9,643 nucleotides of DNA from Candidatus Sumerlaeota bacterium. GTDB taxonomy: Bacteria > Sumerlaeota > Sumerlaeia > JAFGJS01. A program made the translations under genes and the position numbers. The stretch is taken from the NCBI GenBank assembly GCA_016928995.1, contig JAFGJS010000156.1, positions 1 to 9,643 of the forward strand, read 5' to 3'. This document shows, one piece after another, positions 911 through 9,138 of this stretch; position 1 is the first letter of the stretch; each line of letters opens with the position of its first letter. The notes below the pieces were generated by a model. The model was given only the letters and a program-made list of their open reading frames with translations. It had not been told where the DNA came from and ran no database searches.

Positions 911-1726
911 TTAAAAATCCCGCGCGATCCATGCGCCGAGCTGCTCGATCATCAGCGTGCGTCCATTGTCCAACTCGACGATGATCACTTCGACGCGGCT
1001 GAATTGACGGTCAAACACCTCGGCCGGCGGAATGCCGTGGAACAGCAGCGCCTTGCGTCCGTCTTTCAGCCGGATCATGGGCGCACGTCGCTCCACATGC
1101 ACCGGCACTTCACCCTCGCTGGCGACAAACAATCCCGCTTCCTGCAAACGCCGCAATAGCCCGTCCGGCGCATCCGATGCGGCCGCGTCACGAATAATGA
1201 AGCCCTCTGTGGTGTCATCGTCATCCGTCGAGTGCGCGGCGTCCTGCGCAGCGCCGCCGCCCTCATCGGACGCCAGGGCCGATTCAGACACTGCGACATG
1301 CGGCGACCCCGCCTCCTGCTCTTCAACTTGCTCCCATGCCGGGCCAAGTTCAGGGCCGCGTTTGGCGTGGTAGCCCTGCGCCGCCATGCTGTTCTCGAAT
1401 TGCTTTTCCTCTTCCCGCTGCTTTTTCAGCTGCGCTGCAATCTTGACGATGAAAAACACCAGGCCGCCAAGGGGAAAGCATAACGCGAACGCCAGGCAGA
1501 CCCATGAGGTCGTGTCGTATTTAAGTTCCTCTCCGCCGGGCGGCGCCGTTTGTTCCTTAGCATTTTCACGCTTGGAAGATTCTTGCGCGGTTTGCTTGGG
1601 CTGTTCGATGGCGTCTTTGATCGTTTCACTGCGGGGCGAATCATCTTGCGCGCGCAGCAACGGCGAGCCGATGCAAAGCAGCAACAGCAGAACCGGCCAG
1701 CCGCGCAGGACGCCGCGCGGAATCAC
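911..1726 (-). CDS. Unknown secreted/membrane-anchored protein coupled to a prenyltransferase
   Basis: I do not recognise a family. The start chosen is GTG at 1726, which overlaps the upstream TGA as GTGA (translational coupling) and puts a signal-peptide-like sequence at the N-terminus: arginines at 4 and 9, a hydrophobic run at about 11-24, possible cleavage after RAQ (27). An in-frame ATG at 1765 would add 13 residues but lie inside the neighbour. The 271 residues comprise the signal sequence, a charged region rich in Gln, Glu and Lys (28-72), one membrane helix (about 74-97), a coiled-coil-like KKQREEEKQF stretch, a long acidic low-complexity region (about 130-185, with DDDD) and a compact C-terminal domain (about 187-271) of alternating hydrophobic strands ending ELDNGRTLMIEQLGAW. 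The context suggests an envelope role with the prenyltransferase; this is inference. Confidence 0.78.
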   Translation of the reverse strand: MIPRGVLRGWPVLLLLLCIGSPLLRAQDDSPRSETIKDAIEQPKQTAQESSKRENAKEQTAPPGGEELKYDTTSWVCLAFALCFPLGGLVFFIVKIAAQLKKQREEEKQFENSMAAQGYHAKRGPELGPAWEQVEEQEAGSPHVAVSESALASDEGGGAAQDAAHSTDDDDTTEGFIIRDAAASDAPDGLLRRLQEAGLFVASEGEVPVHVERRAPMIRLKDGRKALLFHGIPPAEVFDRQFSRVEVIIVELDNGRTLMIEQLGAWIARDF

Positions 1727-2598
1727 TTCTGAAAGTAAAAAATGTAGATCATTGAAGCGAGCCATAAAATTACGTTCGCCACCATGGTTTTATCGCGCAG
1801 CACGGTCATTTCCGGCGCGCCGCCTTGATTCTGATGATAGACCGCGTGGAGATAGCGAAAGATGCCATAGACCACGAAGACCACGGTCCAGACAATGCCG
1901 TGGTGCCGGTCGTTGTTGATCGCATACAGCGCATAGGCCATGATCGTGCCCGTGGTCGTGATCGAAACGAGCTGATCGAGAAACGGCGTCGAGTACTCCT
2001 CGAGCACGGCGCGATGGTTGCGCGCGCCCTCCTGCAGCAATCCGATCTCATGGCGCCGCTTGCAGATCACGATGAACAGCGCCAGAAACCACACACACGT
2101 CAGAAACCAGGGCGTGGCTGGAACGGTCGGCTCATTCACCGCGGCGATGCCGGCGTACGCACGCAGCACGAAGCCGAACGAGAGGATCATGATGTCAATA
2201 ATCGCCACGTGCTTCAAGCCCAGCGTATAGCTGACCGTCATGATCAGGTAAACCACGCCGCAGAGGCCGAACTCGAAGGAAATCAGGAAAGACCAGGCCA
2301 GACCGATGGTTCCGGCGATCAAAGCGCCAATCTGCGCCACGGGCATCTTCAACGCGCCGGACGCCAGCGGGCGATTTTTTTTCTCCGGATGCTGCCGGTC
2401 CTGCTCCACGTCCCGGATGTCGTTAAACAAATAAATTGAACCGGAAAGCAGGCAGAAAGAGACGAAGGCCTGCACAACGCGGCTGAGCAGCGTGATGTCG
2501 GTCAACTTTTCCGCAAAGATCAACCCTGCGAAGAGCAGAACATTTTTCAACCATTGGCGGGGACGCAATCCCAGAAATAGCCGCCATACCTGACCCAT
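1723..2598 (-). CDS. UbiA-family prenyltransferase, decaprenyl-phosphate phosphoribosyltransferase type
   Basis: Integral membrane enzyme, about 291 residues, with roughly eight or nine hydrophobic helices. The signature NDIRDVEQD (59-67), followed by DRQHPEKKNRPLASG, is the Asp-rich, Mg2+-dependent active-site loop of UbiA enzymes, in the form seen in decaprenyl-phosphate phosphoribosyltransferase (DPPR synthase), which joins 5-phosphoribosyl pyrophosphate to a polyprenyl phosphate. LRPRQWLKN near the N-terminus and the cytoplasmic KRRHEIG motif (about 180-186), where ubiquinone-type enzymes usually have a second Asp motif, support this subgroup. ATG 2598 (MGQVWRLF) gives the usual N-terminal length; ATG 2655 would add 19 residues. 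Neither has a strong ribosome binding site. It overlaps the next gene by four bases and probably leads that transcript. The product is likely a lipid-linked ribose or arabinose donor, which cannot be proven here. Confidence 0.9.
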   Translation of the reverse strand: MGQVWRLFLGLRPRQWLKNVLLFAGLIFAEKLTDITLLSRVVQAFVSFCLLSGSIYLFNDIRDVEQDRQHPEKKNRPLASGALKMPVAQIGALIAGTIGLAWSFLISFEFGLCGVVYLIMTVSYTLGLKHVAIIDIMILSFGFVLRAYAGIAAVNEPTVPATPWFLTCVWFLALFIVICKRRHEIGLLQEGARNHRAVLEEYSTPFLDQLVSITTTGTIMAYALYAINNDRHHGIVWTVVFVVYGIFRYLHAVYHQNQGGAPEMTVLRDKTMVANVILWLASMIYIFYFQK

Positions 2599-5102: not shown

Positions 5103-5177
5103 TTCAACATCTCCGGACAAAGGCAAATAAATTTCGCATCGATCAATTTGACGTTGAATTGCATTCCATTCCATGCG

Positions 5178-5247: not shown

Positions 5248-8200
5248 ATGGCTGTGATTGTACAACCAGGAGAGATTGTCATCGGCATCGACCTCGGCAC
5301 CACTTACTCAGTGGTCTCGCTTGTGGAAAACGAAGAGCCGTTGGTGATTAAAAACGCCGAAGGCAAGAGCAAAACGCCCTCTGTCGTGGCGTTTACGGAC
5401 GAAGACCATGCCCTGGTGGGAGAGGTGGCGTTGCGGCAAATGGCGACGAACCCGCGCCGTTCGATCAGCTCGGTCAAGCGCCTGATCGGCCGCAACTATT
5501 CCGACATCCAAGACCGGGAGATGTTCACCTATGAATTGATGCCGGATGAAAACGACGAGATTTTAATCCGCATCGACGACCTGGGATATTCTCCGCAGCA
5601 GATTTCCTCGCTGATCCTGATCAAACTCAAGGAAGCCGCCGAAGAGCATTGGGGCGGCGAGATCACCAAAGCGATCATCACCGTTCCGGCGTACTTCAAC
5701 GACCGTCAGCGGCAGGCCACGATCGAAGCCGGCCAGATGGCGGGACTGGATGTGCTGCGCCTTGTGAACGAACCCACCGCCGCGGCAGTGGCATATGGCC
5801 TGGGGCGCAGTTTCGAGGGTGTTGTGGCGGTCTATGATTTCGGCGGCGGCACGTTCGATATCTCGATTCTCGAAATCATCGAAAACAGCTTCGAGGTGCT
5901 CGCAACCCACGGCGACACGTTCCTGGGCGGCGACGACATCGATATGCGCATCATGCGCGGCGTGGCGGAAAAATTCAAAGCGCAGCACGGCATCGACCTG
6001 CTGCAAGACCCCATGAGTTTCCGGCGGCTGAAAGAACAGGCCGAACAGGCGAAATGTTATTTATCATCCGCGCAGGAGGCCGTGATCTCGCTGCCGTTCG
6101 TGGTGCAGACGGAAAGCGGCCCGCTCCATCTGGAAGAAACGATCACGCGCAATGACTTCGAGGACATGATCGAAGACCTGGTGAAGCGGACGCTGGAATG
6201 CTGCCGCGAGACCATCGACAGCATCGGGCTCAAGCGCCGCAACATCAAACGCGTGATTCTGGTCGGCGGCTCCACGCGCATCCCGATGGTTCAGGAGATG
6301 GTGGCGGAGTTCTTCAACCAGGAGCCGTTCAAGGGCGTGAACCCGGACGAAATCGTGGCGATGGGCGCGGCGACGCAAGGCGCGGTGCTGGCCGGAGGGC
6401 TGGATGAAGTCGTGCTGATGGAAGTCACGCCGCACTCGCTGGGCATCGAAGTGAAGAACAACCGGGTGAGCCGCGTGATCGAAAAAAACAGCACGATCCC
6501 GCTCAAGGCCGCGAAGACCTTCACGACCACCGAAGACTTTCAGGAATTCGTCAACATCCACGTGCTGCAGGGCGAAGATCCTGAGGCGTCCAACAATCTG
6601 TCGCTGGGCAAATTCACCTTGATGGATATCGAACCCGTGAAAGCCGGCGAGCCGCGCATTGAAGTCGCGTTCTTCATCAACTCGGACGGCGTGGTGGAAA
6701 TCAGCGCTCGCAACATGCTGGACGAATCCGCCGAACCGATCACTGTGCGCCATTCTTTCCTCAGCGGCGCCGAGCGGGAGGAAATGCGCCATAAGCGCCA
6801 CACCCGGCGCCACGTCGCGCCTCCTGGGCGGCGGGCGGACGACTCATCCGTCGTGCGTCATATCAAGGAAGACGCCGCATTACAGCCGAAGCATCTGTCC
6901 GAAGAAGAACTGAAAAAAGAAGAGGAAAAGCACGTCGCGGAAAAGAAAGCGCCGGCATCGAAAGAGCTCGATTCCGCCGAGGTTGTGATCCCGCGGAATC
7001 TTGAGCCGCCGCAGGAGATGACGGAAACGAATGTCCGCTTAAAAAAGGCCGCCGTCCCCGCCAGCGAAGATGAACCTTCGCAGACCGGCGCAAACCACAC
7101 CGTCACCGTCGGCCAAAGCCTGGATTACGCGGCGATGATGCTGGATGATTCGGATCAGCCCGGACGGCGCCGATATGACACTCCATTCAAGGACAAACAG
7201 GCCCAACCCTCTCTCGCCGCGGCACAGCGTCCAGAAACAGCCGGACCAAACGACGACACGGTTCAACCGGACCGCTTGATGCCCGCGGACACTCCGGAAG
7301 AGCCGGACGATGAAGACGATGTGACGGATCCATGGCAGCAGGCGCTGCATCATGTCAAACACGACGATCGCGATGCGCATGTTCAATCTCCCGCGCCGGA
7401 TGGGACCGGCGTCCACAGCTCGCCGCAGCTGCTGGATTCATTGCCCCCGCCCGATCAGATCGATTGGCCCGCGGAGCTGCAAGCGCTTGAGCCGGAACTT
7501 TCCCCGGAGACGCTTGCCGCTTGCGAATGCCTGACACACGCCTCGGATCCGACTCATGACGAGCGTGAAGCGCTCCGCAAGTGCGAGAGCGAACTCGAGA
7601 AAATCGCGTTTGACCATCCAGAGTCCTTTCTCGCCGCGGAAGCCGTAATGCGCGCAAAAATGGCCCTGGGCAATCCGCATCCCGCGCTGATCCAAATCGA
7701 GCAATACATGCGCGCGAATCCCGGCCGCCTGCTCGAAGCGCAACGGTTGTTCCGCCAGCTGCTCAAGGCCCATCCGCATCACGCGCCCGCGATGAAGCAA
7801 TACGGACGGCTTTACATCCAGCTCAACAATGAAGAGCGCGGATTGCATTACCTGGAAAAAGCCTTGGAGCACGAAACCTCGGACATGGCCTTGATCGAGG
7901 AATTGATCGAGCAATACCAGCGGCAGCTCAACGAGCAAACCGATCCCGTGGTGCAGTTCAAACTCGTCAAGCTGCACCTGAAGCGCGGCAACATCGACGA
8001 AACCATTTCGATCCTGCAGCAGCTCACCAACAACGAACGCTATCAGCAAAAAGCGACCAAGATTCTGGGCTTTTGCTTCTGGCAGAAAAACATGTACTAC
8101 CTGGCCTGGCAGAAATTCAAGAACCTGCCGGTGACCAATGAAGTCAAGGACATCCTCTACCGCCTGGCGTCGGACATGGAAACGGCGGATCAACTGACGA

Positions 8201-9138
8201 ACGCGCGCTACTCGCTGGAACGCATCTTGGAATTCGACTACGCCTTCCGCGACACGCAGAAGCGCCTGGAGCAGATCAGCCAGCGCATCCGCAAACAGCA
8301 GCAAAGCCTCGTCCTGGCCGCCGCGAAGGAAGAGCACAGCGTGCTGAAGGACTCGCGCTTCGTCGTGCTCGAAGAAATCAACCGCGGCTCCATGGGCATC
8401 ATCTATCGCGCGAAGGACCGCGTGCTCGACGAAATCGTGGCCTTGAAAGTGCTCAACGATTACCTCTGCCAGGATCCGCAAGCCATCGAGCGCTTCAAAC
8501 GCGAAGCCCGCGCGGCCAAACGCTTGAGCCATCCCAACATCGTGCGCATCCATGACATGTACGACAGCACCGGCAAATTTTTTCTCTCCATGGAATACAT
8601 CGAAGGTCGCGACATCAAGGCGATCCTGCGCGAAAAAGAACGCTACACCTGGAAAGAGCTGGCGCCGATCTGCCTGCAAATCTGCGACGCCCTTAAATAC
8701 GCGCATAAGCTCAGCGTTGTGCATCGCGACGTAAAACCGGCCAATATCATGGTCACCTCCGCCGATGAAGTGAAAGTGACCGATTTCGGCATCGCCAAAC
8801 TGCTGCGCACCGAAGACGCGACGAAATCGCAATCGATGATCATGGGGACGCCGCTGTATATGTCGCCGGAGCAGGTGGAAGGGCTGAGCATCGACGCCCG
8901 CTCCGACATCTATTCACTCGGCGTCATGCTCTACGAACTGCTGTCCGGCGCGCCTCCCTACATTGAGGGAAACATCGAATATCAGCACGTGCACGCGGAA
9001 ATTCCGCCCCTTCCAGGCGATATTGATCGCATTGTCACGGAAATCGTTTACAAATGCATGGCGAAAAAACCGGCGGATCGTTTCCAATCCATCTCGGAAC
9101 TGATCCAGGAGATCAACAACAACGCCTCGGATGTATAA
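5248..9138 (+). CDS. Hsp70 (DnaK-like) - TPR - Ser/Thr protein kinase fusion protein
   Basis: 1296 residues from ATG 5248; an upstream ATG at 5173 would add 25 residues not expected in Hsp70, and neither start has a clear ribosome binding site. Hsp70 ATPase domain (about 11-385): IDLGTTYS (14-21), Lys77 in SVKRLIGR, NEPTAAAVAYG (174-184), VYDFGGGTFD (195-204), LVGGSTRIP (338-346); all key DnaK residues are kept. Beta substrate-binding domain (about 390-506): VTPHSLGIE, NIHVLQGE, VEISARNML. The helical lid is absent; a charged, proline-rich linker (about 507-760) follows. TPR-like helices run from about 790 to 1020. Kinase domain (about 1036-1290): glycine loop NRGSMG (1045-1050), Lys1067, HRDVKPAN (1159-1166), DFG (1179-1181), GTPLYMSPEQ (1200-1209). 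No membrane helix, so probably cytoplasmic. I infer a kinase whose activity or targets are set by chaperone and TPR modules. Confidence 0.95.
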   Translation: MAVIVQPGEIVIGIDLGTTYSVVSLVENEEPLVIKNAEGKSKTPSVVAFTDEDHALVGEVALRQMATNPRRSISSVKRLIGRNYSDIQDREMFTYELMPDENDEILIRIDDLGYSPQQISSLILIKLKEAAEEHWGGEITKAIITVPAYFNDRQRQATIEAGQMAGLDVLRLVNEPTAAAVAYGLGRSFEGVVAVYDFGGGTFDISILEIIENSFEVLATHGDTFLGGDDIDMRIMRGVAEKFKAQHGIDLLQDPMSFRRLKEQAEQAKCYLSSAQEAVISLPFVVQTESGPLHLEETITRNDFEDMIEDLVKRTLECCRETIDSIGLKRRNIKRVILVGGSTRIPMVQEMVAEFFNQEPFKGVNPDEIVAMGAATQGAVLAGGLDEVVLMEVTPHSLGIEVKNNRVSRVIEKNSTIPLKAAKTFTTTEDFQEFVNIHVLQGEDPEASNNLSLGKFTLMDIEPVKAGEPRIEVAFFINSDGVVEISARNMLDESAEPITVRHSFLSGAEREEMRHKRHTRRHVAPPGRRADDSSVVRHIKEDAALQPKHLSEEELKKEEEKHVAEKKAPASKELDSAEVVIPRNLEPPQEMTETNVRLKKAAVPASEDEPSQTGANHTVTVGQSLDYAAMMLDDSDQPGRRRYDTPFKDKQAQPSLAAAQRPETAGPNDDTVQPDRLMPADTPEEPDDEDDVTDPWQQALHHVKHDDRDAHVQSPAPDGTGVHSSPQLLDSLPPPDQIDWPAELQALEPELSPETLAACECLTHASDPTHDEREALRKCESELEKIAFDHPESFLAAEAVMRAKMALGNPHPALIQIEQYMRANPGRLLEAQRLFRQLLKAHPHHAPAMKQYGRLYIQLNNEERGLHYLEKALEHETSDMALIEELIEQYQRQLNEQTDPVVQFKLVKLHLKRGNIDETISILQQLTNNERYQQKATKILGFCFWQKNMYYLAWQKFKNLPVTNEVKDILYRLASDMETADQLTNARYSLERILEFDYAFRDTQKRLEQISQRIRKQQQSLVLAAAKEEHSVLKDSRFVVLEEINRGSMGIIYRAKDRVLDEIVALKVLNDYLCQDPQAIERFKREARAAKRLSHPNIVRIHDMYDSTGKFFLSMEYIEGRDIKAILREKERYTWKELAPICLQICDALKYAHKLSVVHRDVKPANIMVTSADEVKVTDFGIAKLLRTEDATKSQSMIMGTPLYMSPEQVEGLSIDARSDIYSLGVMLYELLSGAPPYIEGNIEYQHVHAEIPPLPGDIDRIVTEIVYKCMAKKPADRFQSISELIQEINNNASDV

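Follow-up and report, generated by a model that had tools for sequence, protein, structure and literature searches.

Bacteria are known to sense protein misfolding mainly through the titration of transcription regulators by chaperones and through envelope proteases. Control of a kinase by the Hsp70 system has been described in eukaryotes, where BiP and its J-protein ERdj4 repress IRE1 until unfolded proteins compete (PMC5733394). In bacteria, HSP70/GrpE and TPR/DnaJ proteins have been proposed to act as threshold devices in the GAP1-N2 GTPase conflict systems, in which they are encoded by separate genes in operons (PMC7159879). Chaperone-system components can also be fused to a kinase, as in DNAJB1-PKA (PDB 4wb7), although it is a J-domain and not an Hsp70 that is joined there. 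The closest described protein comes from a survey of prokaryotic Ser/Thr kinases published in 2005, which lists one Pirellula sp. kinase with a C-terminal HSP70 domain (gi|32474490) and separately notes TPR kinases (PMC1262709). Within the open-licence literature this listing was the only direct precedent that we found (PMC1262709), and our search there turned up no functional study of a protein that joins an Hsp70 to a kinase.

The protein considered here is encoded in a genome of Candidatus Sumerlaeota (BRC1), an uncultured phylum. Like the Pirellula protein it combines a Hanks-type kinase and an HSP70 in one bacterial polypeptide. As far as the description of the latter allows the two to be set apart, the Pirellula HSP70 lies C-terminal to the kinase and a single species is listed, whereas the Sumerlaeota Hsp70 is N-terminal and lidless, is separated from the kinase by a TPR solenoid and is conserved across the phylum (PMC1262709). 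Chaperone-kinase fusions are therefore not wholly new. The first-pass annotation, made from the sequence alone, stated that this arrangement was not known as characterised; this stands with respect to functional studies in the open-licence literature, but a fusion in the reverse order had been on record since 2005 (PMC1262709). An N-terminal, lidless, phylum-wide Hsp70-TPR-kinase appears to be undescribed so far. Such a conserved single chain would link proteostasis directly to Ser/Thr phosphorylation, would make the control of a kinase by Hsp70 client occupancy testable with one purified protein, and is a candidate lineage-defining signalling protein for the Sumerlaeota.

Gene and domain layout

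The window, i.e., the whole stretch of DNA analysed, is an entire contig of 9643 bases from an assembly of 4.55 Mb (161 contigs, 92% complete). The uninterrupted frame that had been annotated was borne out, and it is intact in 23 other genomes as well (Table 1). When searched against Pfam, the full protein gave HSP70 (residues 11-574, 7e-183), TPR_19 (826-886, 1.3e-9) and Pkinase (1039-1286, 1.5e-53), which is the claimed order. A start at the alternative in-frame ATG at 5173, 75 bases upstream of 5248, would overlap the beginning of the coaBC frame, which runs divergently. Given that most orthologues start about 8 residues ahead of GIDLGTT, we favour the start at 5248.

Table 1. Positions of the fused gene and its domains in the window, and of class II TPR-kinases in their own sequences
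Feature	Positions	Strand	Basis
Fused gene (1296 aa) for a lidless Hsp70, a disordered tether, a TPR solenoid and a Hanks-type kinase	5248..9138	+	Open frame, Pfam, 23 full-length orthologues
Hsp70 nucleotide-binding domain (NBD), residues 11-386	5278..6405	+	Pfam HSP70; alignment to DnaK 2kho; invariant catalytic residues
Hydrophobic interdomain linker EVVLMEVTP, residues 387-395	6406..6432	+	Alignment to DnaK linker VLLLDVTP
Substrate-binding domain beta (SBD-beta), residues 396-503, with retained pocket and altered arch	6433..6756	+	
Basic stretch and variable low-complexity tether replacing the SBD-alpha lid, residues 504-755	6757..7512	+	Orthologue comparison; orthologue model disordered; dN/dS
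TPR solenoid, residues 756-1033, about 14-15 helices	7513..8346	+	Pfam TPR_19; AlphaFold2 models
Hanks-type Ser/Thr kinase domain, residues 1037-1290; NRGSMG Gly-loop, K1067, E1086, HRD, DFG	8356..9117	+	Pfam Pkinase; PknB-like sequence and fold; invariants
Class II TPR-kinases, examples of 1600-1740 aa	L125 2847-8069; L129 1927-6759; L071 1321-6135		

An Hsp70 without a lid

The N-terminal part belongs to the Hsp70 superfamily, with an actin-like NBD carrying the ATPase signature residues, a hydrophobic linker and an SBD-beta with its pocket. Using DnaK numbering, taken from the alignment to 2kho, the equivalents of T11, K70, P143, R151, E171, D194 and T199 are invariant in 24/24 orthologues, as are those of R167, N170, E217 and V218 and those of F426, Q433, V436 and G468; we take the three sets to serve in the ATPase, in the contact with J-domains and in the peptide cleft, respectively. 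All the ATPase signatures annotated at first reading are thereby kept, and the recognisable SBD-beta was confirmed by the same alignment and by the model of an orthologue. Mean conservation over the 24 orthologues is 0.74 for SBD-beta versus 0.71 for the NBD, which would argue that peptide binding has been retained. This similarity also bears on the idea that the Hsp70 senses no clients and instead acts for the kinase as a sensor of nucleotide (ATP/ADP), as an aid to folding in cis or as a scaffold for dimerisation. Such a role would suit the invariant NBD residues, considering that Hsp70 ATPase domains respond to nucleotide state, but a pure sensor or scaffold would find an SBD-beta and pocket conserved like the NBD superfluous, and we regard it as very improbable.

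Homology to DnaK stops just past SBD-beta, no lid helices are predicted, and the SBD-alpha helical lid of a canonical DnaK is absent from every aligned orthologue. Therefore "an entire Hsp70", as the first-pass annotation put it, was too strong: a tether stands in place of the lid. In nearly all orthologues (G039 is the exception) an Arg/Lys-rich stretch follows SBD-beta and gives way to low-complexity sequence, and the segment that replaces the lid varies from 43 to 247 residues. The AlphaFold2 model of a 1149-residue orthologue (L053) has a confident NBD and SBD-beta, disorder at 496-596, a TPR solenoid and the kinase; on superposition, its Hsp70 part fits DnaK in the ATP state, and it also matches structures of lid-truncated Hsp70s. 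NCBIfam scores are 667 for NF001413 (cut-off 648) and 634 for TIGR02350 (cut-off 822.55). The arch over the cleft is altered too, M404 being replaced mostly by Lys or Glu and A429 by an invariant Thr in the 24 orthologues. In comparison with DnaK/Hsp70 chaperones, the fusion thus has the NBD, linker, SBD-beta and the catalytic and J-contact residues, but it lacks the SBD-alpha lid, has a changed arch and is joined to a TPR-kinase. It is not the housekeeping Hsp70 of its genome, since a separate canonical dnaK and seven J-domain genes are present. Besides the fusion, the genome has three Hsp70 genes. Among the loci compared, an Hsp70 of 822 aa (L061, 2502-4970), extended by about 97 residues at the N-terminus and also longer at the C-terminus, belongs to a separate, kinase-free Hsp70 group.

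The TPR-kinase and its class II relatives

For the kinase half, the annotated Lys1067, HRD, DFG and SPEQ elements were all found in place (K1067, H1159-R1160-D1161, D1179-F-G1181 and the SPEQ segment). The residues that mark a Hanks-type kinase, namely the VAIK Lys, the alpha-C Glu, HRD, the D and G of DFG and the APE Glu (in SPEQ), do not vary among the 24 orthologues. The Gly-loop NRGSMG (residues 1045-1050; 8380-8397, forward strand) keeps its second and third Gly, and an Asn replaces the first in 24/24. Because the other catalytic elements checked are all intact, an active kinase is expected. The NRGSMG motif was also seen in an unrelated kinase of a Thiotrichaceae genome (L114). AlphaFold2 modelled the TPR-kinase of the window with a mean pLDDT of 86.6 and a kinase resembling PknB; PknB/Stk1-type kinases are the closest in solved fold and in sequence, but the fusion has no PASTA domain (no Pfam match) and scores 302 against the cut-off of 450 for NF033483. 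In total, the genome carries 19 kinase genes above the Pfam cut-off.

Two intact catalytic halves within one chain could indicate a self-regulating chaperone, whose kinase would phosphorylate its own Hsp70, the tether, or other Hsp70s and J-proteins and so tune chaperone activity. There are bacterial phosphoproteome papers that mention DnaK and Hanks-type kinases. However, a lid is usually needed for stable client holding and its loss in all orthologues would be odd for a working foldase, and a canonical DnaK is additionally present; we consider this role distinctly unlikely.

The closest relatives of the fused kinases form a sister clade of TPR-kinases, here termed class II (kinase identity 47-51%), which are mostly about 1500-1800 aa long and occur in nearly all Sumerlaeota genomes. 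They share with the fusion the kinase and a homologous C-terminal part of the TPR region, and they differ from it in having a long TPR array, an N-terminus other than Hsp70 and a Gly at the first Gly-loop position. Beta-propeller/FG-GAP matches were obtained in the N-termini of 2/3 class II proteins tested, and in the class II protein of the window genome itself no named domain was matched over an N-terminal region of about 680 residues. As the proteins most closely related in the kinase have long N-termini of other kinds, the Hsp70 looks like a recognition module that was swapped in, judging from these comparisons.

Distribution, origin and selection

We searched 40 Sumerlaeota genomes and read the contigs at the matches. 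The gene or its pieces occur in 33/40; the same Hsp70-TPR-kinase order, for which the first-pass annotation had suggested a count, was found at full length in 24 genomes, the window's included. In four further copies (G011, G014, G022, G024) Hsp70 and kinase share one frame that is truncated where the contig ends, and four genomes have only pieces at contig ends (G005, G006, G010, G019). A natural split of the gene in G033 was ruled out, the apparent break inside SBD-beta being an N-run gap in the scaffold. The gene was not found in seven of the 40 genomes (G004, G007, G009, G034, G036-G038), some of them more than 90% complete, and it is therefore not essential throughout the phylum.

A scan for orthologues in other phyla covered 84,980 species, its reach limited by the peptide patterns used, and gave 34 sequences related to the TPR-kinase stretch. 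Of these, 28 are the fused gene in Sumerlaeota, two of them with the kinase half only, and the other six are weaker kinase matches. In 288 genomes of the phylum of G041, which is recorded as Verrucomicrobia, the best matches listed lay in frames of 495-953 aa and comprised Hsp70 alone. A viral origin was rejected as relatives were not found in viral contigs, and a plasmid origin because 80% of the protein was never covered in one place by any plasmid record.

When Hsp70 domains were placed in a tree, the 24 fused proteins grouped in a single clade (support 0.997), distinct from the DnaKs of other phyla as well as from three further Hsp70 groups of Sumerlaeota. The kinase tree likewise unites the same 24 (0.985), adjoining class II. 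The deepest branch of the fused clade is in both trees G039, the sole examined genome from outside the window's class. Since the two trees agree on a single clade and on its deepest branch, the simplest reading of the phylogenies is one ancient fusion followed by vertical descent. Three close pairs had unsaturated dS and were usable for dN/dS (a fourth was saturated). In these the NBD gave 0.10-0.19, SBD-beta 0.12-0.25, the kinase 0.05-0.27 and the TPR part 0.16-0.41; the tether, at 0.29-0.60, had the highest ratios of the segments. By these ratios, NBD, SBD-beta and kinase are under purifying selection.

The window genome is a fragmented MAG, which might suggest that two adjacent genes had been wrongly joined in assembly or gene prediction. 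An assembly join was rejected, however, as 23 other genomes have the identical open frame, among them G035 with a full copy in a single-contig genome of 3.29 Mb; the congruent clades and the purifying selection on the fused gene also speak against an artefact, the chance of which we consider negligible.

Genomic context and possible role

In the window the gene adjoins coaBC and lexA. Comparing the orthologue loci, no shared neighbours were found beyond groups of 3-4 loci from related genomes. A function based on an operon was rejected on these grounds, and in contrast to the GAP1-N2 systems with their separate operon genes (PMC7159879), the fusion looks like a stand-alone signalling gene. Heat-shock control by CIRCE/HrcA was likewise rejected, the best site being no better than those in shuffled sequence.

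Because the domains, the catalytic motifs, the single polypeptide and the peptide pocket are all conserved, a client-responsive or client-directed kinase, probably cytosolic, is plausible. Of these, we lean towards the former, at prospects a little short of even: the lidless Hsp70 would be the input module of a Hanks-type kinase responding to misfolded proteins. The Hsp70 part would cycle ATP with J-proteins and bind hydrophobic segments that misfolded proteins expose. With a client in SBD-beta, the Hsp70 on its flexible tether would engage the TPR-kinase differently, either in cis or in a partner molecule, and the altered engagement would switch kinase activity or dimerisation, coupling the misfolding load to phosphorylation. 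Such a protein would be a covalent analogue of the control that BiP exerts on IRE1. This proposal agrees with the (near) invariance of the ATPase, J-contact and pocket residues, with the invariant kinase residues and the selection on NBD, SBD-beta and kinase, and with the co-occurring dnaK and J-domain genes. The differing class II N-termini fit an N-terminus used for recognition, the tether is long, variable and disordered, and the gene stands without conserved partners. For the logic itself there is a precedent in BiP-ERdj4-IRE1, made of separate eukaryotic proteins (PMC5733394). Several observations point the other way. The changed arch and lost lid may leave client affinity weak, the invariant Gly-loop Asn could lower kinase activity, no CIRCE site was seen in support of heat-shock control, and seven genomes do without the gene. 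Moreover, a tether of such variable length disfavours a precise allosteric relay, and therefore speaks against rigid allostery and for control by proximity or dimerisation.

The strongest rival is a client-directed kinase, in which the Hsp70 would set the choice of substrate and not the activity, holding unfolded or nascent clients near the kinase to be phosphorylated for repair, degradation or silencing. A conserved peptide pocket on a long flexible tether would suit such proximity phosphorylation. On the other hand, lid loss should, from general knowledge of Hsp70s, shorten client residence, and phosphorylation of misfolded proteins was not found for Sumerlaeota; we hold this rival to be rather unlikely. 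If the misfolding-responsive kinase is taken one step further, the protein might be a self-contained, phylum-wide receptor kinase for unfolded proteins, a one-protein counterpart of BiP-IRE1/PERK in bacteria, which would read misfolding directly and pass it on by phosphorylating targets in the cell. This analogy we offer as a possibility that falls somewhat short of likely.

Two minor observations concern the contig upstream of the gene. Positions 911-1765 (reverse strand) encode a protein of 284 aa that seems to contain hydrophobic segments and matched neither Pfam nor NCBIfam. At the contig start, 80-162 and 321-393 (forward strand) match the Rfam group II intron families RF01998 (D1D4-1) and RF00029; the matches are about 160 bases apart with no reverse transcriptase frame between them, indicating an ORF-less or truncated intron.
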